A DNA stretch of 64,000 nucleotides from Liolophura sinensis (Eukaryota > Mollusca > Polyplacophora > Chitonida > Chitonidae): NCBI RefSeq assembly GCF_032854445.1, contig NC_088304.1:10737704-10801703 (forward strand), read 5' to 3'. Positions 6,301-64,000 of this stretch are shown one piece after another; the first letter of the stretch is position 1; every line of letters starts with the position of its first letter. The notes beneath the pieces were generated by a model, which worked only from the letters and a program-made list of their open reading frames with translations, searched no databases and was not told the origin of the DNA. Position numbers and translations under genes: made by a program.

Positions 6301-9300
6301 AGAAATTCCTTTAATTTCTGATTGCTGAACAAATACTGGATATAAGTTCATATTAGACAGCAGAGGAAACATAATATGATTTGATTGATTGACCCCCCCC
6401 CCCCCCACCCACTTTCAAAAAAACAAGAATGGTGTCATAGAAAGACTGCTTCTGGGTAACTCTTGCAATAATACATAAAAAGTGTTCTTAGAGGAGGTTA
6501 AGGGAGAAATTTTTAGTAAAAACTTGCCATTTAATTAAAATTTTCTCTATTTACCAAGAATAGCTTATATATGGTATCAGACCCTTACCTGTGGAGGTTT
6601 AGCCAGATGGGTATCTCAGTGTCTTTGAAACGCCCTGTTTTTACAAAATTAACAATGGGAGAGATAGGGAAAATAGGAGAAAATTGGAAATGAGGACAGC
6701 CTGATTTCAAATTCTGACTAATCTATGCTTTCCTGTATAAATTTATACTGTTGAAATGATTGAAAAGTTTGAAAAAGTTATAAAAGGGACACCCGTCATA
6801 AATTTTATGAACTTCATTAGCCACTTCAGCCCGTGCACAGACAAAGCACATTCATCTGCATGGTTCTTCTGTTAATTAGGCAAACATGAACACCGGTACA
6901 GGTATGAATGGTTTATTGGAGAGATTTGCATACAGACCTCCTCAGCCATTGCGGTTCACCACTGGCCAGCGTACATCGCAGCCTCGCTCTCCTAATGAAG
7001 CTACTGCTAGCGTGGTACGGCAGAGACCTGAAGGCTGGGAAGAGCTTGATATGTTATCACTAATAACAGAGAAGACGACCCAGACAACATGGACGAGTCA
7101 GGTAGGTTGCACTACTCAAATCTTCTTCTTTACACACTTCGAATCCGCTAGATCTACTGTGGCTTTATTTTAATTATGTTAGCAGCAAAGTTTTAGGCCT
7201 TTTTTGTGTTTAATTTCTCCACCCACGAATTCTTCAGCAGACAATTAAAAAAAACAATATAATCCTTAATGTACAACACCTGTTGCTGTTAACCTTCTCT
7301 GCATATTGACATATTCTTGAGGTGCGGCGTAAGACACCAAAATAAATAAAATACACGTAAATAAATATTCCAGTGGTCAAAATGTTTTAAGAGCTCAAAA
7401 CAAAAATGACGACCTCACAGTCAGCCCAGTCATCATAAGAATGGTCATGGAAATATTCATAATTTTACACACTTAAGAGATGGTTTGATGCATTTTGTCC
7501 ACTTCCATACTGTTTTGATGTATACGAATGGCATGTAGTGTATTTCACGCCATTAAGTCATGTTTATTTTTTCATTTAAACGACCTAAATTTTGATAAGG
7601 TTATAAATTGGAAATGAGACGGCCAGATTTCAAATTCTGACTGAATCTATGCTTTCCTGTATAATTTATACTGTTAAAATGATTGAAAAGTTTGAAAAAG
7701 TTATAAAAGGACACCCATTATAAATTTTATGAACTTCATTAGCCACTTTAGCCCGTGCACAGACAAAGCACATTCGTCTAGCTCAAAATGTCAATATCTT
7801 AACCCTTGTATTCTACCATGTACTGACTGTTAATATATGCTTGTTTTCAGGTCAAGGAGATTCTCTTCCAGATTTGATTCCAGGTAAATTTAAGGCACAG
7901 TATCGCAGCAGGTCCAACGCTGATCAGATCACAGAATGGGATAGGTAATGCTACTAAAGATGTTTTTTTGAATTTTCAGTAGTACAAAAGGAGGAGATGT
8001 TGTGTTTCCTATTCCTCTTGTTTAATGCTCAGGTCAAATTGCACCGAGTAGCAGAAGAATTATATATTCAATCTGAATTTAAGTCAAGCTTTAAAGAAGA
8101 TACAAGCTGTTAAATCTTGACAACATAATTTTTAGGCCATGCTTATACCTTTCTTATCATAATCAATGTTTGAAGCACCAATTGCTGTCAGACTTCACCC
8201 TTGTAATATATGGTTAAACTGGTTCATTGCATAAAGTGAGGATGGATATAGTGTACTTCACTGTTATATGCCTTTTACAATTGATGCGCTGAAGATTGAT
8301 TGGAACACTGTACTTTTCCAGTTATATGATCCTGGTCAGTTTTATCAGGAAGAGGAAACTAGAGTGCCAGGTGTAAACCACTAGCAAAGTTTACAGAGAT
8401 GTGTGAACTCATCATTCAACACTGTATATTGCGTATTGCTGTCTAATCTGGTTTTAAGGAAATTGTTCCACCTTGTAGAGCCGTATTGAAATGAAGCTTT
8501 TCTTCGAAATTTCTGTTTTTGGATAAGGTTCCGTGAAATTGCCCCTGCTGAGTTAGTTTGTGTTTTGATATTTTTAGTTTGCCTATTTGTACGAGTTTGG
8601 CATATTTAGTATGCCAAACATGTGAAATATGCCTAGACCGCATACACACAGGAAGATAAAATCCAAAGTCCGATCTCATTTTTTATTTTTATGGTCCATT
8701 TTTAGTATCAGATCCAGTATTTTAGCGTTCAAATTACATCGTGGATTTAGTAAGTAACCCGCAACTTGCGAATTAAAATAGCTTAAATGTAGCTAGCGAA
8801 GGATTTCCGAATGGTGACCTATTTATTCTGTCTTTTTACGGGGAAGGCCTAATGACCGGAATGAAAATCTGGAATAGAGGAAAACACGGATTAGCAGTAC
8901 CAGGGTATTTGTAAACCGCTATTAGGGGAATACTACAGCTGGTATCGCACCAGCGGATGTAGAAAGACCAGTTTCTAAGTTTTCTAAACATACTGTATTT
9001 ATATTATTAACCATCGATGTTAGTACTTTAATCCTGCCCAGAACGGATACCTGGGCACTGCTATTCTAGGTTTTCCTGTATTCAGAGTTTTCATTTTAAG
9101 GTAAGTATAATGTGTGTAATGCCCATTGTATGCCCTTACCAGCCAAGGTCCTCAGCCCAACTGATGACACCTCTAACAACAGACACCCAGTTGGCAATAC
9201 TCAATCTTACCTCAATCTGTTTTAGTGACAAAAGCAAAAAGGTTATTTCTTGCATTTGTGTTTTTATTTGAAGTGATTTTTAAGAAGGGTTGAAAATATA

Positions 9301-18063: not shown

Positions 18064-18345
18064 GTCCTGATCCCAGAGTTATATTTGTTACTGGTTCCAG
18101 AGTCATTAATGTGCACACATTTTCTCCTGCTCCCAGAGTCATCACTCTGCACAATATTTGTCCTGCTTCCAGGGTCATCACTAGAACACTTCTGTCCTGC
18201 TCCCAGAGTCATCACTCTGCATACTTTTGTCCTGCTACCAGAGTCATCACTGCACACTTTATGTCCCGCTTCCAGAGTCATCAACTTTGCACACTTTATG
18301 TCCTGCTTCCAGAGTCATCACACTGCAAAATTTTTTTCCTTGTGT
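18064..18345. repeat. Minisatellite of 33-37 base units with a hairpin core
   Basis: About eight units share CCAGAGTCATCA followed by a variable TCTGCACA and TTTTGTCCTGC. In the best units CAGAGT-CATC-ACTCTG forms a perfect 6-base stem with a 4-base loop. It begins about 200 bases beyond the MRPS23 stop codon, so it may be in that gene's 3' UTR or just past it. Confidence 0.85.
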
Positions 18346-21500: not shown

Positions 21501-24500
21501 GTAAGACATATAAAGCTATGCCTGTACTATATACAGACGAGCTAAAAACATATCAAACTATTTATCTGGACAGTGTTCAATGGTCTTTAGTCTGACATAT
21601 TCTTAATGTATCTGTTTTCTTTGCCTGTTCAAAGGATCATATTCAAAAAACTGTGTCCAGTATCACACCTCACCTTTCGTATTTCTTCCACAGTTCTTAA
21701 ACGAATGCCCTCCCCCTTCAATGCCTCACTAGTCAAATGGAACACCTCAGCCTTGTCTTTACCCGCAGCCAGCAATTGTAAGTACTTCTCAACGAATCTG
21801 AAATACATGTAGGGAAACACTTGGTGTTTCTTCTCTTGTTAATTTGATTTATTTATTTAGTTGAATGTTGTTGAATGCTGCTTCTTTTCACATGTAGAAT
21901 GGCAGTCAGTCAGTTTTAAGGTTAAAGAAACTGAAGGTAAACCACCGACCTTTGGTAAGTTTCTAAGGAGCTTTCCCATGGGTGACATATGCATGGATTA
22001 CATGTTGGAAGTCAAGTGATCTTCGACTTGTGTATCACTGTCCATACGACTTACCATTGTCGTTGACTGCTTACCATCATAAGACACCATGAATGCACAG
22101 GAGAGGAACCCATTATTTCCCTTTCCAAGACTAGGATCTTCTGCTAATTTCAAAGCTTGAAACTTTTCAAGTATTAGCCCTGGCTGGGTATTCCTACCAC
22201 TGAGATATTGCGATGCAATCCCTACAGCCACGAAACATTCATGATAATCATTTACATAAAGCCCACTAACTTAGTATATTAGTTTAATAATGTTTTCGAT
22301 GTTTTTCTTTCTAATAGGAAACAAGAGTTCCTAAACATCAAGACTGTTCACATAACAGAGCACTGTTAATTGTAATCAGACCCATGTACAAGTCACTGGC
22401 AAACTCTCCCACCTGCTGCTAATGTCACATTGGTGGAAAACAGTGGTCTTCAATGAACTTCATGCAAAACTACCTGAGGACACTGTTGACTGCTTACTGC
22501 CACCAAGACCCCAAGAACAATGAAAGCAGGGAAATCCCTTGGGGTTTAACATCATATTAAACAATTTTTCAGTCATATGACGACGAAGGAATCCTTAGAG
22601 TGCATGTAATGTGCCTCCTTGATGCAGGACGGATTTCCACTTCTCTTTTTATCTAGTGCTGCTTCACTGAGACGACTTATCGCAGGCAAGTAAGGCATCC
22701 CACCTGAGCCATTGTACTGATACGGGTCAATCAGTTGTTACACTATCCCCTTAATGTTGAACGCCAGTGCTGGAAGTTACGACTTCCTCTTTTACGGTCT
22801 TAGGTGTGACCAGATCCACAAATGACCCTAAATCTACCACCCCCGAAGTGGAGGCTTTAGTCTGATAATGAGATCAAACCAACATCTTGTGTGAGCTCTC
22901 CACAAAAAGGCTAACACTGTAACCACTCTGCTATTGTATTTTATTTATTTGTCTGATTGGTGTTTTCTCAAGAACACTGGTGGGAGGAAACTGGGCAGAG
23001 CCCGGGGGAAACCCACGACCATCCACAGCTTGCTGCCAGTCCTTCCCATTGAAGCTAGAGAGGAAGCCAGCATGAGCTGAACACAGCAACGGCACTGGTG
23101 GGAGGGTCCTGTGTCATTGCACCGCGCTGGCATGCTAACCCCCTCGGCCACAGAGGTCCCCATTGCGCCTATCCACTCCCACTCCCCCTCACTAAATTGT
23201 GGTCTTAATTCCACTGATAGAGGCGGAATCATGCTGCCTAAGTCACTGCATTCTGTCAAGTTCCCAACTTCCAAGATCACTTACTTTTGACAGGTAGTCT
23301 TGACTTTCTCATTTTGTAGATCAACTACATCAGGATTTCCATAAATCTTGTAAAATTGTCTGAAAAATACAACAATTTCACAACATATATGCATTAACAA
23401 ATACCATGTGGATCAAATGAATAATATATATCAATAACAGTACTTAATATTTTATTGATATACACAGTGAGACATTTTGATAACTCTATGCTGGGCATAT
23501 CTAAAGATTTTGCTAAAGGGCCTGTGGACTCACTATTGGGAAAATTTTAATGCAAAGACTCATATGATGAGAGAAATGTCTATTATTAAGCTGTGATTTT
23601 AAACTGCTGTCTGTTTTACTTTGGACTGAGTCATATACCTTATATAAAAGCTTGTGGATGGATACATATTAAAGTTAACCACAATTAAACACACAAACGT
23701 TGACTTCTCATGTTATACCTTACTCCCGCTGTTTAAACAAAATAAAGATGCATACCATAATCCTTCAACTTTCTCAACTGCCTCTGCAACCAATATTTTG
23801 AAACATTCTGAGAGAACTATGCAGTGTAAAGGAATATTTTGCAAAGTTTATGAAGCTTGCATCTTAAATGACACAAACGAATCAATACAGGTGTGATTTT
23901 CATAATAACTGCATACATAAATTCCACTGAAAAAAGTGCATTATTGGTTGAAAAGACTGAAGATTTACAGTATCTGAAAAGTGTATATTTTTGACAATAA
24001 GGACATGTGTGGCTGCAAATTGAGAAACAAACCATTGAGAAATATTCCTACAAGGCCTTATTGTCACAGTCCTGCAAGGTCTTATTGCTTCAGTCCTGCA
24101 CAGTCTTATTGCCACAGTCCTGCAAGGTCTTATTGCCACAGTCCTGCAAGGTCATATTGCCTCAGTCCTGCAAGGTCTTATTGCCACAGTCCTGCAAGGT
24201 CTTATTGCTTCAGTCCTGCAAGGTCTTACTGCCACAGTCCTGCAAGGTCTTATTGCCACAGTCCTGCAAGGTCATATTGCTTCAGTCCTGCACAGTCTTA
24301 TTGCTTCAGTCCTGCAAGGTCTTACTGCCACAGTCCTGCAAGGTCTTATTGCCACAGTCCTGCAAGGTCTTACTGCCACAGTCTTGCAAGGTCTTATTGT
24401 CAGCAATATATGTGAAACATTCTTCAGGATGGCTTTAAACACAATTAAGATAAATTAAATTCAATAAAGTAAATAAATAAATAAGTAAATAGTAAATGCA

Positions 24501-48436: not shown

Positions 48437-49090
48437 TGGAATTTATTGTCAAAAATTTCCATTTGCTGGAGTTTTATGCATGAACAGTTACAACTTTCAC
48501 TTTGCTAGAGTTTTATGCATGAACAGTCAACTTTTCCTTTGCTGGAGTTTTATGCGTGAAGAGTCCAATTTTTATTTGCTGGAGTTTTATGCATGCAGTC
48601 ACAAATTTTCCTTTGCTGGAGTTTTATGTATGAAGAGTCACAAATTTTCTTTAGCTGGAGTTTTATGCATGCAGTCACAAATTTTCCTTTGCTGGAGTTT
48701 TATGCATGAAGAGTCACAACTTTCCCTTTGCTGGAGTTTTATGCATGAAGTCACAAATTTTCTTTTGCTGGCGTTTTATGTATGAACAGTCAAATTTTCT
48801 TTTGCTGGAGTTTTATGTATGAAGTCACACATTTTTATTTGCTGGAGTTTTATGCAAGAAGAGTTACAAATTTTCCTTTGCTGGAGTTTCATACATGTAC
48901 AGTCACAAATTTCCATTTCTTTACTATAATTTTATGCATCAACAGTCACAAATTTTTCTTTGCTGAAGTTTTATATATGAGCACTCACAAATTTTCCTTT
49001 GCTGGAGTTTTATGCATGAACAGTCACAAATTTTCCTTTGCTAAAGTTTTATACATGTACAGTGACAAATTTCCAATTCCTGGAATTTTG
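48437..49090. repeat. Minisatellite of 34-39 base units, about 17 copies
   Basis: Unit built from TTTGCTGGAGTTTTATGCAT, GAACAGTCACAAA and TTTTCC, with variable length. It gives repetitive ORFs (125 and 114 residues) with no gene-like content. Confidence 0.9.
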
Positions 49091-50713: not shown

Positions 50714-53700
50714 TTATAATTTGGACACAGTTTTCAGAGAGCCAACCACAGGTTTGTCCACAAACTCTCTCCACCAATCGGGTCGCTCCAAAACTTTGGG
50801 GCCCTGAAGCATGGCTCCATACAAGTTTTTATAAATCTACAAAAAGAGAAAAACAGAATGTGACTGCATATAAGGTCAAGAATTTTTGGCAAGAAAGTTG
50901 AATACAACTTTAATTTACTTTGATATGTTGTTTTATCCTGTTATTCACTATTATTATGAGTTAGAAAGCAAGGTACATACTTTCTTACATTATCAATAGA
51001 CAAAAACCATTCAATAAAATAAAACTGATGCACCTACCCACTTGAGCATCTGATGGAGGAATATCATGTAACTTGATCACTTGAGTGTCTGTTACGAGAA
51101 CATTCATGTTACCTGGCCACGGGAGTGTATGAAAAGGGAATATTCATGTTACCTGGCCATTGGGGTGTCTGATGGGGGAATATTCATGTTACCTGGCCAT
51201 TGGGGTGTCGGGGGGGAATATTCATGATCACTTGAGTGTCTGATACGAGAACATTCATGTTACCTGGCCACAGGAGTGTATGAAAAGGGAATATTCATGT
51301 TACCTGGCCATTGGGGTGTCTGATGGGGGAATATTCATGTTACCTGGCCATTGGGGTGTTTGATGAGGGAGTATTCATGATCACTTGAGTGTCTGATATG
51401 AGAACATTCATGTTACCTGGCCATGGGAGTGAATGAAAAGGGAATATTCATGTTACCTGGCCATTGGGGTGTCTGATGGGGGAATATTCATGTTACCTGG
51501 CCATTGGGGTGTCGGGGGAATATTCATGATCACTTAAGTGTCTGATATGAGAACATTCATGTTACCTGGCCACAGGAGTGTATGAAAAGGGAATATTCAT
51601 GTTACCTGGCAATTGGGGTGTCTGATGAGGGAATATTCATGTTACCTGGCCATTGGGGTGTTTGATGAGGGAGTATTCATGTTACCTGGCCATTGGGGGT
51701 GTCTGGTGGGGAATATTCATGTTTCTTGGCCACTGAAGTGTCTGATTCGGGAATCCAAGGAAATTTCCCCGAATGTTTATTTCACCTCACCCAAAGGGTA
51801 TAAATGTCTAATTACATGTAAACATGACGGTAGGGTAAGGTGGAGCATGCAAAATTTGTGATGAGAAATTCATAATACCAGGCCATTTGAGTGTCCAATA
51901 GGCGAGCCAAGGATGAAATCTGGGGGAGCCATGGCATCTACGAGCGCGACAGCATCTGGCTTCAGCTCTTGGCACAGCTCCAAGATTGCACCCCTGATAT
52001 ACTCTGCTGGCTGACTGCCCACTGCATAGCCTCCTATGAATACAAGTAAACACAAATACTACAGCTCTGTACCCTGCTGGCATACATGTTTTCAACTCTT
52101 ATAAGTACTTATAGGATTTGTTTGATTGCTGTTTTATGCCATACCCAAGAATATTTCACTTAAAGGCGGCCCAGCGTTATAGTGGGTGGAAATTGGGCAG
52201 AGCCCAGGGAAACCCACGACCAATCAAACGTTACTAGAAGACTCCCCCATGCACGACAAGAGAGGAAGTCAGCATGAGATGGACTTGACCTCATACCAAG
52301 CCAGCACAATTTGATGATAGTCCCGTGAGGCATTCAGCTGAGATAGCAAGCTAACCAGTCAGCCATGGAGGCCCCTCAAAAGTGAAGTTAGTGGGAAGTC
52401 AAAACTATGAAAGAACACAAACGACATGATCCAATTTGGCATATATATGATAAATAACCTAAATGAGTTGTATATCAAGAGAGAAATCAATGGCATAAAT
52501 TATTGCTTCTGGTTTGGAAACTTTTCAAAAATTTTTCCAGCCGGATATCATCCTACCTTCCAAACAAACCTTTGAGCACAATCTTAATACTCCTGCAAAA
52601 TGTGCAGCTTGGACACTGACGAAATTTTCGATCATTTTTCAATATGTGAACATGGTCATACACTGTTGTCAATCCCCAATATAAAACAATGCAGAGCTGC
52701 TAGTTTGTTCACACAAGTCCTAGATCTGTTTTCACATAGTGTTTACAGAATTAAATGAAACATAAGCCGAGAAACAGTACTACCGATATCAGCCTGAGTC
52801 AACAAATCAGACTCACCTTGATACAGTGTGGCCATATGTTTCTCTAAGCTCCACAATCCATATAAGGCACCAAGTTTCTCCAGAACAGGAAAGAGTTCAC
52901 GGGGAACAGGGTCCTCATACTCTCCATCCAAAAGCTTACAGAACCTATCCAGAACAGTGTGCTGTAGATAGGGAAACAATCAAACCCTCCTTTTTTTATA
53001 CTCCATACAGTATTTAAAACTGTTACAGTTTGATCTGGAGACTGGGTTGTACCTTGCACTTTGAACACAAGATCAATCTTTGTGCACAGATATGGCATTC
53101 ATTTAAACACAGATTTATTTATGTACTGATTTTGTTTGTTTGTTTTTAATGCCCTAAGGCCATCCCAATTTAAACTGTTCAGTAATACGGGCAGAATAAA
53201 TGTTTTTCAATGTCATAGGAGAGCATAAAATTAAAAATATAACTTAAACATCGTCTAACTTATGAAATGTGGAATGTCTTTTCAATACGAATAGCCTCCT
53301 ATGAGGAGTTCCTGCCTTCCGAAAACACCAATAGTACAGTCACTGACTGAACAGCTCTACAGAATAAACTTCAGCACCAATCCCTTCTCTCCATGCCAAA
53401 ATCATCACAGAGCTCCACCAGTGTGAAGATCTATTTATTCATTTATTTAATTGGTGTTTTACGCCGTACTCAAGAATATTGCACTTATACAATGATGGCC
53501 AGCATTATAGAGGGAGGAAACCCGGCAGAGCCCAGGGGAAACTCACAACCATCTGCAGGTTGCTTCCAGATCTTCCCACGTACGGCTGTAGAGGAAACCA
53601 GCATGAGATGGACTTGAACTCACACCCACCAGATCGGGGAGTGGTTCCTTGGTCATTGTGCCGTGCTGGCGTGCTAACTCTCTCGGCCACAAAGGCTCTC

Positions 53701-56700
53701 CCCACCAGTGTCAAACATCTGTGTCTTAATAGCAAATCAAAATGACAAAGACAAAGATAATCTGAATTACTTTCCAAAGTTGTAAAAAAATCTATACAGT
53801 GCATTAAATCCGCTATTCCACCTTTCGGATGATAATACGGAAAGTAAAATTTTCTGTCTTTTCCACTTTTGCCTAGTGTGAGGTCACGCACCTATCCCTG
53901 ACGAATGGCCACAAATGACCTCATATTTTAACCGTAAAAGCATAATCGCCACGCCCCAACGTCATGTCTGCTTCATTCAATGTCATGTGACTATCACAGA
54001 ATTCTTACAGAAATGGTCGAAGATCTAGTTTATGAGGACAGATCAGTTAAAGTGAAAGATGGATTTCTGTCATATAATCTTACTATTTCTCCATAGTTTC
54101 AGTAGGGTAGTTTCTGGAGTAGTAGTTTTCTAACCGCATACCTCCATGTAAGCCAGAGAGAGGCTTCTGCTGTAATAGACTTGGCTGTCGTTTCTCGCTG
54201 AGAATTGGTCTTTCCCAGACCCCAGCTCCTGTCTGAGCTTCGTGTAGCTGTCTCTCATCAGCCGACACACTAACCACTTGTAGCCTTCCAGAGCCACTGA
54301 AGTCAAAAGCTAATATTAAAGCGAATGATGAGACTTTTTAATAGTATTATAATTATGATTATTATGACTAATATGGAAAGTGTATGCATCGATCAATCTG
54401 GTCCCCAATCTTGTCCCAGGAACATCTGGACGATATCTTTGGATATCACAGGAAGGTTTTGAACAGAACTTCAGACCATGAAGAATCAAATAAGCAAATA
54501 AGCAAAGCTCAAGCTTTGTGATCTTGATCTGTGGCTTATACACCAGGAGACAAGCGGACTCTAACGAACGTTAGACTGCACAAATGGTCATACGAAAATT
54601 GTCCACCATTTACTGTCACCACTATGGTTCCCATCCTCTACAGCCCAAGGCCAGGACTTCACATGTCGACGTGAATGAAAAACCAGCACCATTAACCACT
54701 TGGCCATGACCGGTTTACATCAAATGAAGGCCAAATATATCAACATCAAAGAGACAGAAAGTTCAGAAATATTACAGGCACATCTACACATGTATCAGCA
54801 CATATAACTTTACCTTTAGGATTTTTGCAGTCCCTGATAGACCTAGCAGAAAACTTCTGTTGAAGGATTGTCTTGTAGTCACTGATGAAGTTGATGGTTT
54901 CTAGTGGGGAGGACATGGGCTCTCCTGAAACAAGTTCAATACTAAACAATTGTAAATGAACAGCTCAAATATGTACATCCATGGAGACAAGAGAAAAAAA
55001 ATTGAATCCTGATGCATAAAATACCTCCTCCTCTATCCCCACCAGCATTTCCAAAACTAAAAGAAAGAAATCTAAGAAAGGCTTAAAGAAATGACTGCAC
55101 ATCATGTTGCTTAGCTTGGCCTCATATAGATTGTTTCATGGGCCATTTGAAGAGAGTAAAGTGTTCACGGCGGTCAGCATTATGGTAAGAAGACACCGGG
55201 CAGAGCCCGGGTGAAACCTACAAGCAGTGATGTGGTATTTTGACAAACTGAAGGCCCACAAACTAACTGTACCTTTGGTGACAAAGTTCTCAAACATTCC
55301 CAGTAGATAGTTGCTGGTTTGTTGCTGAATAACGTTGTTGTCGCCCTCGTAGGTGTTGTTTGGGTCATGGTCGTTCCGCAGATCTCCCAGGCGATTCACT
55401 GTCAAGGGAGAGAACTCTGTAAGTTAGCAACCGCTGATATCTGTCTTTGTTCTAAAAACAGCTACATATGTTGTAAATGACCTAAAATTTCACTCCAAAA
55501 TAAGCAATTATAGAAGTAAATAAATTACTTTTTGTGCTGAAACTAAACATACCTCAAAACACCTGTCTAAGAACAATAAAGCCCTTTATAAGGGATTCGA
55601 TGTCTTGGTTTGAGAGATAGGCAAGCAGAGGCTAGGCTATGCCTAGGCTGGATTTTAGGTATGGTACATTTATTCAAGCATAACTAAGGCTGCAAAATTT
55701 AAGCCAGGAAACCCTATCTCTACTGTCACGCAAAGCAAGCAGCTTAGTCATGGACAAAATCTGACCTACTGGCTGTGTTCTACACACGTATAACTCAGTC
55801 TTCATGTTCTACCCACTTCTGCTCATAAACCAAAATGTTTACTTTATCACTGAACTTATACACCTGCATTAAATATAAAGAGGCTAAACATACAAGTATG
55901 GCTACAATTATACATCTGTCAAAGATTTAACCTTCCATACTCGACCCTGAAACTGGTCAGCTCCGCCCTTGATAAACGCTAATATTCTGTATAACCATGG
56001 CGAAGAGTGTTAAACTGTAGGAGCAAAACTCAGAGTCATTCCTGAGTATTTATTTACTCCGCTGGTTTTCAAGGCTCTACTCAAAAAAATTTCAATTGTA
56101 TGTGCTTGTATATGTAAGGAAGGATGGACAAGTGGCCAGAGTAAACTCAGTATGTATTTAACAAACTTCCTGATTTAAAGCCCAGCTGAAGCAGCAAAAG
56201 CTGGATTTGAACTAACAACCTCTTTGGTCAAGGATAGTCGAACCATGCCAGCAAACTGACTATCCAAGCCAATTCTGATGGGCTTTATAATGGGAAACAT
56301 TGCCTGCTTAAAACCATGTCAGTAAAAGCAGTTTACACATTTGTTTTTTAAAACTGAAAACGTTATCGTTAAACAACCAAATTCATGATAATGATTAACT
56401 GCAAGTTTTTCTTCAAATTTCCAATGACTTTAAAAAAAACTGTGTTTGAATGACAGAGATTAACCATGAATAAGGTAGTGATTTTATTGCAGAATCCTGA
56501 ATTCGCTTTCAGCTATTGTTTGATGCCTTCTTAGCTCTTAATTTATTTAGCTCTTTGACTGTTGCTTGAAAGCACCCTCGAGACTTTTTTACTTCATGCA
56601 AGCGGCAGCCAATTTCATAGGTGGAAGAAACTAGGCAGTCCAGTCCACGGTAAACCACCAACCTGTAGCATGTTACTTGTAATGACAAACTTTCCCAAAT

Positions 56701-59700
56701 GTGACGTACAGATCTGCTTATAATGTTGGTGGAAGACAAGTGCACTTTTTTTCAATGAAGGTAGGACTGAAAAAATCACCATGCGAACATCAATTGCTGC
56801 TGACTGTTACCACAAGTCCAAATGTAGGGAGAGCATAGGAATCTCCGAAGTCTCTGTCTAACGCAGGGATTGAACTTGCACTGTGTGTGTCCTATTAGCA
56901 GACAGTCAAGCACCTAAACAACAGTCACAAGCCGCTCATATTACCTTTAAAGTATCCATGTCCTCCGCATGCCTCTCGACACTCCTGTATGGCATCTCTG
57001 ACCAGCCATCCTGACAGTGGCTTGCTGATGCATGACAACGCATGCACCTCTCGACCCAGGTCAGCCTAGAGAGGAATCACGAAAGTAAATCACAGCTAAT
57101 TCTATTTGTTCTGTTTTTGTTTTGTTTTGTTTTTTTACGATGTTTTCAAGAATATTTCACTTATGTGACCGAAGTCAAACTTATCAGTTGTTAGTATTGC
57201 GGACTCTTAACTCTGGAATCAAAATAAATTTTGTCATTTCTGTAGTATCTCGTCATCTCCTAAACATTACCATAAGCCAGCCAGCCATCAATATAAATGA
57301 AACATTGTCCAATCTGCATTGACTATCAGTGGACCTATCAATCTATACATTATAAAAACCATTGACTGCAAAAAAAGAAAAAGTGACTATTTAAAAACAA
57401 AAACGTAAGGTGTCTCAGCACAGGTCAAATGACAGAGAACCAATCAGAAAAGAGTGGTGTATGGTGTATGTTGCCTGTAGTATCTGGCACGCTTTGCTCT
57501 ATTACAAGATTGTCTGCTCTATATCCAGTAAACCTAAATAGTATGTGATCTTGTGAGACTAGATTATACTGGGCCATACCTACAGTCGTCCTTAGTGGGA
57601 CAACAACTTTTAGATAGCAATGTAATTTTATAATAATGTATTATACACACATTAAAAAAAACAACATATTTTCTTTCCGCCTTTTAATAATTCATAAACA
57701 GGACTTTATTAACTGGCTGGATCCCCTCAACTGACCTGATCTAAACACTTCAGCCAAAGGGGTAGGGGGCGGATAAATGTGATAATGACATTAGCACTGT
57801 CTTCACATCATTGTTTCCAACAGAGCAATTTATGTAACCGCCACTGTTCTATTTGTGCTTTGCTTTTTAATGCCACAGTGGTGGTGTACATTGAGACATC
57901 AAATCTTATCGGTGGGACATCACAACACCCTTCCACCCACCATAATGCTGGCCACCGTCGTATAAGTGAAATATTCTTGAGTACAGCGTAAAACACCAAT
58001 CAAATAAATAAACAAATAAATAAATAAATCACAACAATCTATTCAAGCAACACACCTTGCTGATGGCTTCACCCTGTTGCGTGTGGTTACTATACTTATA
58101 TATAAACAGCCAACTGTAAGGCAGATTGCTTTGTATTAAATGTACCTTGCGTCACAATCAAAGTATGCACAATTAGTCAGGGAACAGACAGGTTTATTTG
58201 ATGACATCAAGAAGACAGTTGTTGAAGAGTTCCAACGAAGGGCAACAACTCTTACCTGTCTTTGACTGTTGTCTCCCATGATTGTTCCAGCTCGGATGGA
58301 GACATAGTCCATGAAGAAGGTTTTACAAAAATGTTCTAATGTATACATCAGTGCCAGGTACGGGAAGAGACGCCATTGCTGAAAACACAAGATCATGTCT
58401 CAGCATTTTTCAATCAATCATACAGGATGATATACATTACGTAGACATCTTTATTTTCAGATGGTAAAAAGAATGCCTTTCAATATCTACATGTAAGACA
58501 CACCAGGTACAGGTTCAAACCCAGCCTTGGACAGAGAGGCTATGTATGTACATATGCTTGGTTTTTCACCTAATTACACGTAACAATGGTTTGGTCACAT
58601 GACAACAAGTCATTCGGTGTATGTGTGTACATTTGTATTGTGTCTTCTTGTGACAACGCGAGTCCAGGCTGCCACAATCCGGTTTCCTTGCCCTAACCTC
58701 TCTGCACCGAGTACCAAGCGAGACAGCAACAAGTGCCACTTTTAAAGTCTTTCATACCATCTGAACCGGCTTGATCCAAGGTCTCCCAACCCCGAAGCGG
58801 ACGCTCCAACCATTAACCAAAGAAATCAACAGAAGATGAAGATTTCCCCACCCTCAATGTTATCAACTATACTCACATAGCTCTTTGCATACTTTAACTT
58901 TCCTTGAAGACCACTTGTCTCGCAATAATACAGTTTATATATTTCTACATCAAACAGGGGAAAGTTTGTCATTAACTAAACTTGCTGCATGCCAGTGTTT
59001 TTACTCTGGGGTACACTCTTGAGTGTGGCATCAAATCAACAGTCAAATGAAGAAATTAACCAGCTTCTGTTACTGTGTGTGACAGGCACAGTTACCTACA
59101 ATTGATAGTGTGTGTCGAAAGGCACATTCACATGTAACTAATACTGTGTGTGACAGGTACATTTACCTGCAATTGATACTGTGTGTGACAGGTACAGTCA
59201 CCTGCAATTCATACTGCGTGTGACAAGTACATTCACTTGTAACTGATACTGTGTGTGACAAGTACATTTACCTGCAGCTGATTCTGTCTGTGACAGGTAC
59301 ATTTACCTGTAGTTGATATTGTGTGTGACAGGTACATTTACCTGCAGCTGATGCTGTGTGTAACAGGTACATTTACCTGCAGCTGATGCTGAGTGTGACA
59401 GGTACATTTGCCTGTAATTGGTACTGTGTGTGACAGGTACACTTACATGTAGCTGATACGTGTGTGACAGGTACATTTACCTGTAGCTGATACTGTGTGT
59501 GACAGGTACACTTACATGTAACTGATACTGTGTGTGACAGTTACAGTGACCTGCAATCGATACTGTGTGACAAGTACATTCACTTGTAAACGATACTGTG
59601 TGTGACAGGTACAATTACCTGCAGTTGATGCTGTGTGTGACAGGTACATTTACCTGTAACTGTAACTGTCTGTGACAAGTACATTTACCTGTAGCTGATA

Positions 59701-62700
59701 CTGTGTGTGACAAGTACAATTACCTGCAATTGATACTGTGTGTGACTGGCACAATTACCTGCAGTTCATACTGTCTGTGACAGGTAAATTGACCTGTAGC
59801 TGATACTGTGTGTGACAGGTACATTTACCTGTAGCTGATAATGTGTGTGACAGGTACATTTACCGGCAGTTGATACTTTGTGTGACAGTTACATTTACCT
59901 GTAGCTGATACTGTGTGTGACAAATACAATTAACTGCAATTGATACTGTGTGTGCCAGGTACAATTACCTGCAGTTCATACTGTGTGTGACAGGTACATT
60001 GACCTGTAGCTGATTCTGTGTGTGACAGGTACATTTACCTGTAGCTGATAATGTGTGTGACAGGTACATTCACCTGCAACTGCTACTGCGTGTGACTTGT
60101 GCATTTACCTATAGCTGATGCTGTGTGTAACAGGTACATATACCTGTAGTTGATACTGTGGGTGACAGGCACATTTACCTGTAGCTGGTACTCTATCACA
60201 GGAATTTCCTCATTCTCACGAGGTCCAAACTGTCTTCTAACGGCCGAGTACCTGATCGCAATGGTGATTGCACTCTTGAGGTTAGTCAGTCCCATGGAAG
60301 TGATCCCCACCCGACCCCCAGACAACGCTCCAAGGGAGGCTCCAAAACGCTTATTAGGGTCCTGCCAATACAAACATACATCTATGCATATACCCAAGTT
60401 TTGCAACTGTATACCTTTAGTGGTGCAAAAGACATAAAACATGCTGTGTTTGACCTAAAATTCGCCCCTAAAAAGCATACTTAAATACACGCTAATAATC
60501 ATGATAATGATGATCAAATATTACTTCTGCTGCTCAAGCTGACATATTTCCAGTAGGTTATCATCTTATCTTCAAAGCTAATGTTAAACCATCTTTATAA
60601 GATCAATAGAACTCTTAGAATAAGGAAAGGTTTGCAACTTTGTTGAGGACAAAATTTTAGGTCAAATACAGTATATCAAATTGTTGAATGACATAAATAC
60701 AGTATATCAGATTGCTTAATGACATAAATACAGTATATCAGATTGTTTAATGATATAAATACAGTATCAATTTGTATCATGATATGTTCCTTAATATAGA
60801 TGTTTAATGTTCATTTCATTAAAATTTAGTACAATTACATGAAAATAAACATATATACACAGTACTACATGGTGCGAAGATGGAATCTTTTCCAATGCTA
60901 CCCTATATATGGTTTTCAATCTTTTTCACTCATTTACATTGAAAGATGTGGCAGAATTCTATGAAATATGATGATATTATGTGTATCAACAGAATAACAA
61001 ACATCCATAAACAAATGTTTAATCCAATGGGCAAAAACTAGTGTAATTTTCCACAAGAAACTTAGACTTGGGAGCAAGGCTTCCAAAGAGCATGCCTGTA
61101 GGAAGCAAATGAATGCAGAACTTCAGCTCAATGCATAAAGAAATGAAATCGAGAATTTGGTAATATACGGTAATTAATATGTTCACAGAGCATCAAGGAT
61201 GGAAAATCCCCCTTGTGCCATTGTGCCTTACATGCATGTAAAACTTCAGGTCAAAACATGCTGTACTATTTGAGATACCAAAATGTTGTTAAATTTTGAT
61301 TCTAATACACTTGATCAAGAATTTTGTAATTTATGGTATTTAATATGCACACACTGATGGAATATCCCCCTCGTGTTATTGTGCTCTAGATGTGTGCAAA
61401 CCCTGAGCTCAATACATGCAGTACTTTTTGAGATACCATCCCTAACATTGCTTTTCCTGTTACACAGATGCTCAGGTACGACATAAGCTATGCCTGTACA
61501 CTGTACAGGTGGGCCAAACAAAAGGCTTTTACATCATTATAAAATCATTTAAATCTTTCTAATATTAATACATAATTATAAAATCACTTAATCTGCTGCT
61601 AACTTAGCATGACACAAAAATCAGTTACCTTGAAGGGTGTGATATACTTGCCGGCAGCTGACACATCCCCAGTCTTGTTCAACAGGTTAATTCTGGGGAT
61701 TCTGAGCTTGCTGAACATCACAAATCTGTAACACAGTTTATAGCAAGGAAACAAAATCTGTAACACAAGCTAGCAAGGAAACAAAATCTGTAACACAGTT
61801 TATAGCAAGGAAACAAAATCTGTAACACAAGCTAGCAAGGAAACAAAATCTGTAACACAAGCTAGCAAGGAAACAAAATCTGTATCACAGGCTAGCAAAG
61901 AAACAAAATCTGTGATGCAAGCTAGCAAGGAAACAAAATCTGTAACACAAGCTAGCAAAGGAATAAAATCTGTATAGCATGCTAGCAAGGAAACAAAATC
62001 TGTATCACATGCTAGCAAGGAAACAAAATCCTTGATGCAAGCTGGCAAGGAAACAAAATTTGTATCGCATGCTAGCAAGGAAACAAAATCTGTGATGCAA
62101 GCTTGCAAGGAAACAAAATCTGTAACACAAGCTAGCAAGGAATGAAATCTGTATAACATGATAGCAAGGAAACAAAATCTGTCACACAAGCTAGCAAGGA
62201 ATGAAATCTGTATAACATGATAGCAAGGAAACAAAATCTGTAACACAAGCTAGCAAAGGAACAAAATCTGTATAAGATGTTAGCAAGGAAACAAAATCTG
62301 TATCATATGCTATCAAGGAAACAAAATCTGTGATGCAAGCTGGCAAGGAAACAAAATTTGTATCGCATGCTAGCAAGGAAACAAAATCTGTGATGCAAGC
62401 TGGCAAGGAAACAAAATCTGTAACCCAAACTAGCAGGGAACAAAATCTGTAACACAGTAGCAAGGAAACAAAATCTAACCAACAGTTAGAATGGACATAA
62501 AATTTATAACATCTGGTTAGAATGGAAGCCAAAATGTGTAACACACGGGCAGCAAGGGTACAATGAACATGCAGAAATATCGCCTGTCAATCAAAACATC
62601 AGAATTTCTTCACATAAACTTAGCTCTCTTTTGTTTCTTTGGATTTCTTTCTTTAGTATTCCAGTTTATGTCTAACTACTCATTACCAATGCCAAAGAGG

Positions 62701-64000
62701 CGCTCCTTTTACCCATCATAAATGCCACTGAGGCATATTATCCCACATTACTGATTTTCAAAGCCACTGATGCCTATGCTCTCGCTTTACCCATTACTAA
62801 TGCCGTTGATATTTACCTTTTGACTCTACCCATAATTCAGGCCATTTAAATCTATCCTCTTGTTTTAATATACATTATCAATGCCACTGATGTCTGCCTT
62901 CTAACTTCACCCATTTTGCACCGTTCAAGTCTTAAGACTATCCTGTTGTTTACCCATTATTAATGTGATCTGGTCATATTTTGTGACTCCACGCATCATT
63001 CAGGCACTTAAAGCCTAATTTCTCACACTACCGTAAATGCAAATGAGGCCTGTCTCACTTTGCCAGTTACAAGTATCAATACCACTGTTCTCACTTACCC
63101 ATCACTGTTACTGAGGCCGACAGGCCTTACCTGTTGTCAATGTCAAAGATGCCTATCTTTTCACTTTATCCATTATCATTGTTACTGAGGACAAGATGGC
63201 CTTACCTGTTGTCAATGTCATCAAGGCCTACATGTATACTGTATCTTCTCACTTTATCCATTATCATCGTTACTGAGGACAACAGGTCTTACCTGTTGTC
63301 AATGCCATAGATGCCTATCTTCTCACTTTATCCATTATCATTGTTACTGAGGACAACAGGTCTTACCTGTTGTCAATGTCATCAAGGCCTACATGTATAC
63401 TGTATCTTCTCACTTTATCCATTATCATTGTTACTGAGGACAACAGGTCTTACCTGTTGTCAATGTCATCAAGGCCTACATGTATACTGTATCTTCTCAC
63501 TTTATCCATTATCATTGTTACTGAGGACAAATGGCCTTACCTGTTGTCAATGTCATCAAGGCCTACATGTATACTGTATCTTCTCACTTTATCCATTATC
63601 ACTGTTACTGAGGACAACAGGTCTTACCTGCTGTCAATGTGGTTGGACCATCTAGTGAACAACATACTCATATCTTTACTTTTCCAAAAGACTGGTAAAG
63701 AAATGACATATTCTACTTTCAACATTACTACTATCCGTCACAAAAATTAGAAGAATTAGGGTAAGGCCTACAAGTATATTCTCACTTAACCCATACTCAT
63801 TTCCACTGAGCTGTCTTTTCACCTTTTTCCAGTAATTAATGACCACATCTATATTTGTATTCTCACCCATTATCAATGCCGTTGAGACCTATCTTCTCGC
63901 CCATGTCACCCACCATAACACCTGGCAGAGTCTGCAGAGTCCTGGGGTCTCGTATTGGGGTGACAAATGTGTGCAGTCCATGGCACTTCCCATCGGGCGT
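50714..64000 (-). CDS. ACOX3: Peroxisomal acyl-CoA oxidase, ACOX3 type, 3' eleven exons (5' end outside window)
   Basis: Minus-strand exons: 64000-63867 (cut by the window edge), 61725-61629, 60361-60179, 58378-58256, 57065-56945, 55398-55273, 54924-54814, 54296-54142, 52961-52817, 52033-51879 and 50836-50714 (stop 50716-50714). They total 1473 bases, 490 residues, and all phases fit. Key stretches are [61 protein letters not shown] (the Glu at 55348-55346 is the expected catalytic base) and [14 protein letters not shown]. The protein ends VSKL; SKL is the type-1 peroxisomal import signal. It should oxidise branched or long-chain acyl-CoA with FAD and O2, giving enoyl-CoA and H2O2. The [14 protein letters not shown] signature favours ACOX3 over ACOX1. 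Four of its introns' ends carry junction-derived repeat arrays. Confidence 0.95.
51033..51750. repeat. Array A: about 38-42 base units derived from the ACOX3 exon 51879-52033 donor junction
   Basis: Units such as GAATATTCATGTTACCTGGC continuing CATTGGGGTGTCTGATGGGG. The exon-intron junction at 51865-51905 reads GAAATTCATAATACCAGGCC then ATTTGAGTGTCCAATAGG, an obvious match. On the gene strand each unit presents GGCCAG|GTAACATG, mirroring the true donor GGCCTG|GTATTATG. Four subunit types recur with a period near 153 bases (marker GATCACTTGAGTGTCTG at about 51075, 51227, 51380 and 51529), a higher-order repeat. Confidence 0.9.
52115..52378 (+). repeat. SINE-like family 1 in ACOX3 intron
   Basis: TTTGATTGCTGTTTTATGCC, AAGAATATTTCACTTAAAGG, GGGCAGAGCCCAGGGAAACC and CAGCATGAGATGGACTTGAC; full-length-looking. 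Confidence 0.75.
53424..53705 (+). repeat. SINE-like family 1, best-preserved copy
   Basis: AATTGGTGTTTTACGCCGTA, CTCAAGAATATTGCACTTAT, CCCGGCAGAGCCCAGGGGAA, CACGTACGGCTGTAGAGGAA and a tail CTCTCGGCCACAAAGGCTCT. The tail resembles a tRNA-like or box-bearing end, which I cannot confirm. It lies in the ACOX3 intron between 52961 and 54142. Confidence 0.8.
55399..58255 (-). other. ACOX3 introns around exon 56945-57065
   Basis: Apart from the exon, this stretch is AT-rich unique sequence with a family 1 scrap at 57120-57200 and a reverse truncated family 1 copy at 57915-58020. No junction-derived array here. Confidence 0.6.
59062..60178. repeat. Array B: about 31 copies of a 36-base unit derived from the ACOX3 exon 60179-60361 donor junction
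   Basis: The consensus unit runs TACCTGTAGCTGATACTGTG then TGTGACAGGTACATTT. It starts directly at the exon: positions 60171-60200 read ACATTTACCTGTAGCTGGTA then CTCTATCACAGG, where the last 22 bases are coding (…EYQLQ). On the gene strand each unit offers CAGCTACAG|GTAAATG, the same as the true donor. The 36-base unit keeps frame, and the exon frame stays open for about 96 bases into the array. Confidence 0.95.
60515..60775. repeat. Interspersed fragment plus a 31-base tandem repeat
   Basis: 60515-60660 resembles 3240-3410. 60661-60775 holds about four copies of AAATACAGTATATCAGATTG followed by TTTAATGACAT. Confidence 0.65.
61020..61450. repeat. Family 7 copy in ACOX3 intron
   Basis: Matches 19650-20350 (CCAAAGAGC, AACTTCAGCTCAATGCAT, TGTTATTGTGCTCTAGATGT, CTGAGCTCAATACATGCAGT, ACTTTTTGAGATACCA), same orientation. 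Confidence 0.75.
61726..62475. repeat. Array C: about 25 copies of a 30-base unit derived from the ACOX3 exon 61629-61725 acceptor junction
   Basis: Unit CTGTAACACAAGCTAGCAAG then GAAACAAAAT, beginning exactly at the acceptor. The junction itself (61703-61732) reads AGCTTGCTGAACATCACAAA then TCTGTAACAC, so both the exon edge and the intron end are mirrored in each unit. On the gene strand every unit has a pyrimidine-rich run and GTTACAG|ATTTTG, like the true GTTACAG|ATTTGT. Two repetitive minus ORFs (148 and 117 residues) are by-products. Confidence 0.93.
62660..63650. repeat. Array D: about 45-base units derived from the ACOX3 exon 63867-64000 donor junction
   Basis: The distal part (62660-63110) is degenerate. 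The proximal part (63110-63650) is five to six copies of a roughly 90-base dimer. Both half-units align with the exon end (TCTCACCCATTATCAATGCC then GTTGAGACCTATCTTCTC at 63861-63898): TCTCACTTTATCCATTATCA..TTGTTACTGAGG and TCTTACCTGTTGTCAATGTC..ATCAAGGCCTAC. On the gene strand they offer donors such as CAACAG|GTAAGACC and GATGG|GTAAGTG. The 114- and 126-residue plus ORFs here are artefacts of the repeat. Confidence 0.85.

Follow-up and report, generated by a model that had tools for sequence, protein, structure and literature searches.

Three introns of the ACOX3 gene of the mollusc Liolophura sinensis carry, at their donor ends, minisatellites whose repeat unit consists of the edge of the adjacent coding exon together with the splice donor beside it, and a fourth array, at an acceptor, is a weaker case. 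Arrays of this kind recur at donors of other genes in the same genome. These minisatellites were probably born from local tandem duplication of a segment straddling the exon-intron junction, with duplications that straddle a donor being tolerated.

The window, i.e., the whole stretch of DNA analyzed, is 64,000 nt long (positions 10,737,704–10,801,703 of contig NC_088304.1) and belongs to a 609-Mb genome assembled in 632 contigs. ACOX3 lies on the minus strand and has 15 coding exons and 14 introns, four of the exons and the beginning of exon A lying upstream of the window. All 10 ACOX3 introns in the window have GT-AG ends. The predicted protein is 61–67% identical to ACOX3 of Potamilus, Haliotis, Pecten, Lottia, Lingula, and Branchiostoma (the six orthologs aligned here), and many of the best named matches in a larger protein search were from molluscs, at 63–68% identity. 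A separate protein prediction from the same genome (P0002) matches the first 12 ACOX3 exons and ends there. The exons discussed below, all on the minus strand, are exon A (63867–64000, extending past the window, with its donor after ..GLNGIDNG), exon B (61629–61725), exon C (60179–60361, ending ..EYQLQ), exon J (51879–52033, with a weak donor, CTG/gtatta, the slash marking the exon-intron boundary), and the last exon, K (50714–50836).

The four arrays, also on the minus strand, were found where the first-pass annotation had placed them. Array A (63101–63640) is built of an 87/174-bp higher-order unit containing the edge of exon A (up to 34 exon nt) and the donor, and diverged copies of the same exon edge occur at 62711–62885 (matches of 21–32 nt and one of 13 nt). 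Array C (59067–60192) has a 35-bp unit composed of 12 exon nt and 23 intron nt with the donor, and overlaps exon C by 14 nt. The 40-bp unit of array J (51058–51754) comprises 17–18 exon nt and about 22 intron nt, with donors reading CAG/GTAACATG. Array B (61741–62476) has a 30-bp unit with an acceptor and shares only four exon nt (ATTT) with exon B. Detected copies numbered 25 in array C, 13 in J, 5 in A, and 14 in B, and looser settings gave 31 (C), 14 (J), and 8 (A). The ACOX3 arrays are thus minisatellites in the usual sense (head-to-tail units of ~10–100 bp, locally confined), and at exons A, C, and J each unit crosses the exon boundary and takes in the donor, which is not the case for acceptor array B. 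Ordinary intronic minisatellites, or VNTRs, are comparable in unit length, copy number, higher-order structure, and local confinement, but the unit here includes coding exon and donor.

Matches between each array and its junction were assessed by aligning a query of 25 exon and 25 intron nt to the junction's own intron. Scores were 32 for the donor of exon A, 58 for the acceptor of exon B, 59 for the donor of exon C, and 36 for the donor of exon J, compared with maxima of 22–28 among 40 shuffles and 20–25 among other introns for the same four junctions. None of 1,000 shuffles per junction reached the own-intron score at any of the four. The first-pass annotation had named identity no higher than for shuffled or non-adjacent exons as evidence against its reading; all four junctions score above both shuffles and unrelated introns. 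The remaining 16 of the 20 window junctions, which were the ones covered by the comparison with unrelated introns, score 14–22; the highest, the acceptor of exon H (22), lies one point above its own 40 shuffles and only level with the best unrelated intron. The eight ACOX3 junctions upstream of the window, compared with shuffles only, score 15–21, and none exceeds its own 100 shuffles. Hence, 4 of 28 ACOX3 junctions stand out, exactly those named beforehand, and the other 24 score 14–22. When the query was cut to 34 exon nt, the score was reached by 0 (A), 18 (C), 57 (J), and 593 (B) of 1,000 shuffles. Exon material in the unit is therefore clear at A; at C and J, it is supported, carried mainly by the joined junction, and at array B, the exon contribution is no more than chance in this exon-only comparison. 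The claim that each of the four arrays matches its own junction accordingly stands for donors A, C, and J and is weaker for B, where only the joined junction exceeds the shuffles.

Direction of copying can be read from the coding side. Among the six orthologs, the edges are conserved at A (GQNGLDNG or similar) and at C (EYQLQ or EYQMQ), in keeping with the initial description of the coding side as conserved protein sequence; FVMFSK is conserved only in part. At the end of exon J, all six orthologs have DGQ before IYKNL, while the exon here encodes NGL, its last codon being CTG. Intron J contains 13 copies of CAG/GTAACATG (found by searching that very string), and GCCTGG and CTGGTAT, which were also looked for in intron J, are absent; one neighboring copy (about 51720–51754) has lost its GT. 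Since the copies read CAG and the orthologs have Gln in six of six cases while the exon reads CTG, the copies in array J seem, on the basis of the protein alignment, to be fossils of an older exon state. The original suggestion that the junctions gave rise to the copies, rather than the copies to the junctions, holds for the three donors (conserved coding edges and CAG copies beside a CTG exon), and intron growth by tandem duplication across splice sites is likewise supported for donors A, C, and J.

The pattern had been thought to be restricted to ACOX3, which is wrong. A comparison sample of 24 other 10-kb stretches from the same genome (20 from ABC-transporter genes, 4 from myosin and SLC6 genes) contained positive donors as well. 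To locate exons, tblastn searches with paralogs were combined with a filter on codon position, and a small position matrix fixed the exon ends, so that some junctions may be a few bases off. With a positive defined as a score of at least 30, ABC stretches yielded 15/81 donors and 4/72 acceptors, and myosin/SLC6 stretches yielded 1/26 donors and 1/17 acceptors (22/755 control points). Pooled positives were 16/107 donors, 5/88 acceptors, and 63/715 intron-interior points (150–600 collapsed nt into introns). Donors are positive more often than acceptors (bootstrap difference over stretches, 0.012 to 0.167) and show about a 1.7-fold excess over interior points (difference, 0.005 to 0.120; bootstrap P[≤0] = 0.017). 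For ABC donors versus the collapsed control, Fisher's test gave P = 0.009 (threshold 30) and P = 0.002 (threshold 40), with points that are not independent, and acceptors in ABC stretches showed no excess (4/72 versus 196/2,265 control points). By place, the positive rate was 0.037 in the exon 60 nt ahead of the donor, 0.150 at the donor, 13/101 (0.129) at +90, 11/100 at +120, and 0.057–0.131 from +150 to +600; the acceptor count in this series is 4/89, its point and target limits differing slightly from those behind the pooled 5/88. A coverage-based control, in which 190/662 random intronic points were positive, above the junction rate of 19/153, was replaced by controls counting each array once; arrays of period ≥10 cover 46.8 of 200 kb in the ABC stretches. 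The sample was picked by gene family and is dominated by ABC paralogs, and its rates are not a genome-wide estimate.

Arrays called by Tandem Repeats Finder (TRF) extend across 13/107 donors and 4/88 acceptors, and five begin 34–56 nt inside the coding exon. Two of the 13 spanned donors are long-unit duplications (L012:7744 and L017:9444), and the other 11 have units of 21–96 bp (one of 380 bp) and exon shares of 5–56 nt. Weak positives include L020:5942 (a single 15-nt match, score 30), L017:9444 (a 319-bp unit including most of the exon), and L024:2623 (five exon nt shared). Among 20 positive exons, Pfam placed 10 above the cut-off in the ABC or myosin family and 2 below it, and the identification of the other 8, which had no match, rests on paralog tblastn.

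Downstream of the true donors, the arrays present rows of further donors. Across 14 arrays, 156 of the 173 copies have an intact GT, and array donors scored at least as high as the exon's own in 13/14 copies at J, 3/6 at A, and 11/31 at C (matrix derived from the junctions of this analysis). GT columns were not significantly more conserved than other columns (10/16 arrays, Wilcoxon P = 0.14), which fits neutral copies; two arrays scored one base off the donor (L016 and L025), for which GT counts of 0/30 and 0/23 are meaningless, are outside the 156/173 and inside the Wilcoxon comparison. An in-frame stop ends 4 (A), 96 (C), and 9 (J) nt past the donor and 4–57 nt past it in the 14 pooled positive donors examined (of 16). 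It comes ahead of the first decoy in 11 of the 14 arrays with a known unit (9/11 sampled arrays plus A and J; C, L016, and L032 being the exceptions), so that use of the decoys would be expected to be mostly unproductive; as judged from the reading frame, productive mRNA use of array donors is argued against in most arrays.

The first-pass annotation knew of no described system with this pattern, a claim that is not borne out. The human IFI6 (6-16) minisatellite, described as supplying several splice donors (Turri, Cuin and Porter 1995, NAR 23:1854, as cited in PMC3618361 and PMC4526556), is a precedent for one gene; two downstream repeat units are reported there to serve as donors, yielding further mRNAs (PMC4526556). 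As IFI6 is presented in these citing papers, the arrays share with it an exon-edge minisatellite with splice donor sites in the repeat units and differ in that most would give stops and in their recurrence across many genes of a single genome. The gain of introns through tandem duplication has also been described (Hellsten et al. 2011; 24-bp exonic repeats in fission yeast, PMC4974935), and as outlined in these accounts, it likewise involves duplication of a splice-site segment with an unchanged protein. That model creates a new intron from exon, whereas the introns described here already exist and lengthen from their own edge: the units run from the exon edge into the intron and not into the next exon, unlike a new intron arising from a duplicated exonic AGGT segment. 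A limited literature search turned up no paper describing arrays anchored at donors as common in a genome. The kind is already known, and what is unusual is how often it occurs, along with the series of decoy donors that remain intact; single cases being known, a rate of about one in seven donors, as in this small gene sample, was unexpected. If donors were affected to a comparable extent genome-wide, the genome would offer a natural experiment on spliceosome choice among near-identical donors and a concrete route of intron growth in which former exon sequence is fossilized in introns, and donor arrays would matter for gene prediction and for interpreting cryptic splice sites.

Under tolerated duplication across donors, slippage or unequal exchange would duplicate a short segment straddling the junction. 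Where the donor is straddled, the full exon and its donor would remain, and since the exon-proximal donor would still yield the right mRNA, such duplications would be tolerated. The extra copies would turn into intron, where they may increase in number, diverge in sequence, and organize into higher-order units; selection on the protein would meanwhile preserve the exon copy. A duplicated acceptor would instead put the additional copy upstream of the original, so that it is transcribed earlier, and selection against it may produce the low acceptor rate. The varied units and exon shares in the sample fit random duplications better than one inserted element. Counting against this explanation, random placement should not favor donors, yet they are in excess over interior points; the true donor should face competition from the many intact donors downstream of it, and the donor of exon J is weaker than 13 of the 14 donors of its array. 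The donor excess itself is modest, given the dominance of ABC paralogs and the little seen in the second sample. A tentative alternative is that the intron 5′ end is mechanistically prone to tandem duplication (e.g., through co-transcriptional structures), for which the donor-interior difference, the ABC Fisher tests, the drop in positives with distance into the intron, and the lower acceptor count all speak. However, the excess extends across about 120 nt at the start of the intron instead of being bound to the junction as such, the myosin/SLC6 stretches show little of it, selection at the intron 3′ end can give the same gradient, and the paralogs are not independent. Similarly tentative is the broader proposition that intron 5′ ends, including donors, would be preferred minisatellite birthplaces in this lineage, with introns growing at the donor end, rows of intact duplicate donors among which the spliceosome must pick the first, and copies that keep fossils of earlier exons.

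Retention of the array donors for splicing regulation, via unproductive splicing or isoforms as in IFI6, would account for the largely intact GTs and the many copies scoring as high as the true donor, but the unremarkable conservation of GT columns and the in-frame stops before most first decoys make such a function improbable. Less probable still is a dispersed element or minisatellite family whose units contain a donor-like CAGGTAA by accident. A 39-bp array with CAGGTAACAT does occur in two copies of a larger nearby repeat, and of 42 arrays away from donors, 9 carry donor-like motifs on the sense strand and 3 on the antisense strand, counts that also leave seeding of arrays by such motifs a weak candidate. 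Dispersal of the same units in the genome, which the first-pass annotation had named as evidence against its reading, was, among arrays A, C, and J, limited to one look-alike of array C, 70% identical and at another position on its contig; A and J each matched a single place, their own, in a search of the genome that omits very common words and scores the best candidates only. A dispersed repeat is thus contradicted as the source of A and J, and the coding edge matched by the units differs from donor to donor. Chance similarity or an assembly artifact is the least credible of these readings: the exon-only similarity is weak at J and absent at B, but at none of the four junctions did a shuffle equal the score of the joined query, and the arrays recur in many genes across several contigs.

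Separately, homologous donors of distant ABC paralogs were seen to carry arrays in two sets (L014/L015 with L021, and L016 with L025), a coincidence that is expected according to a rough estimate.

The C-terminal end of ACOX3, SKL, is encoded by an exon at window positions 50714-50836 and corresponds to the peroxisomal signal PTS1. This exon comes after both array J, the minisatellite with a 40-bp unit, and the weak donor of exon J (CTG|gtatta), and read-through at exon J, if it occurs, would yield a form of ACOX3 without SKL. Array C, at another donor of the same gene, showed a likeness of about 70% to a second 35-bp array located on the same contig (L011:4675-5156, about 30.54 Mb).

A 39-bp array whose unit contains CAGGTAACAT occurs at two places that lie upstream of ACOX3 (L009:8812-9679 and L010:6468-8621). 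Each occurrence sits inside its own copy of a larger repeat, the flanks in the two copies closely resembling each other, and no tie of this array to any exon-intron junction was visible. Further minisatellites in the window have units of 39 bp (48448-49072), 24 bp (24046-24399), and 36 bp (18091-18334).

Among the stretches sampled outside ACOX3, a 53-bp duplication (2.1 copies, L035:8432-8544) spans an SLC6 acceptor and includes 29 nt of the exon edge. Another stretch carries two similar, consecutive myosin exons (QESLN.., L032:7516-7603 and 8425-8542), which look like alternatives.
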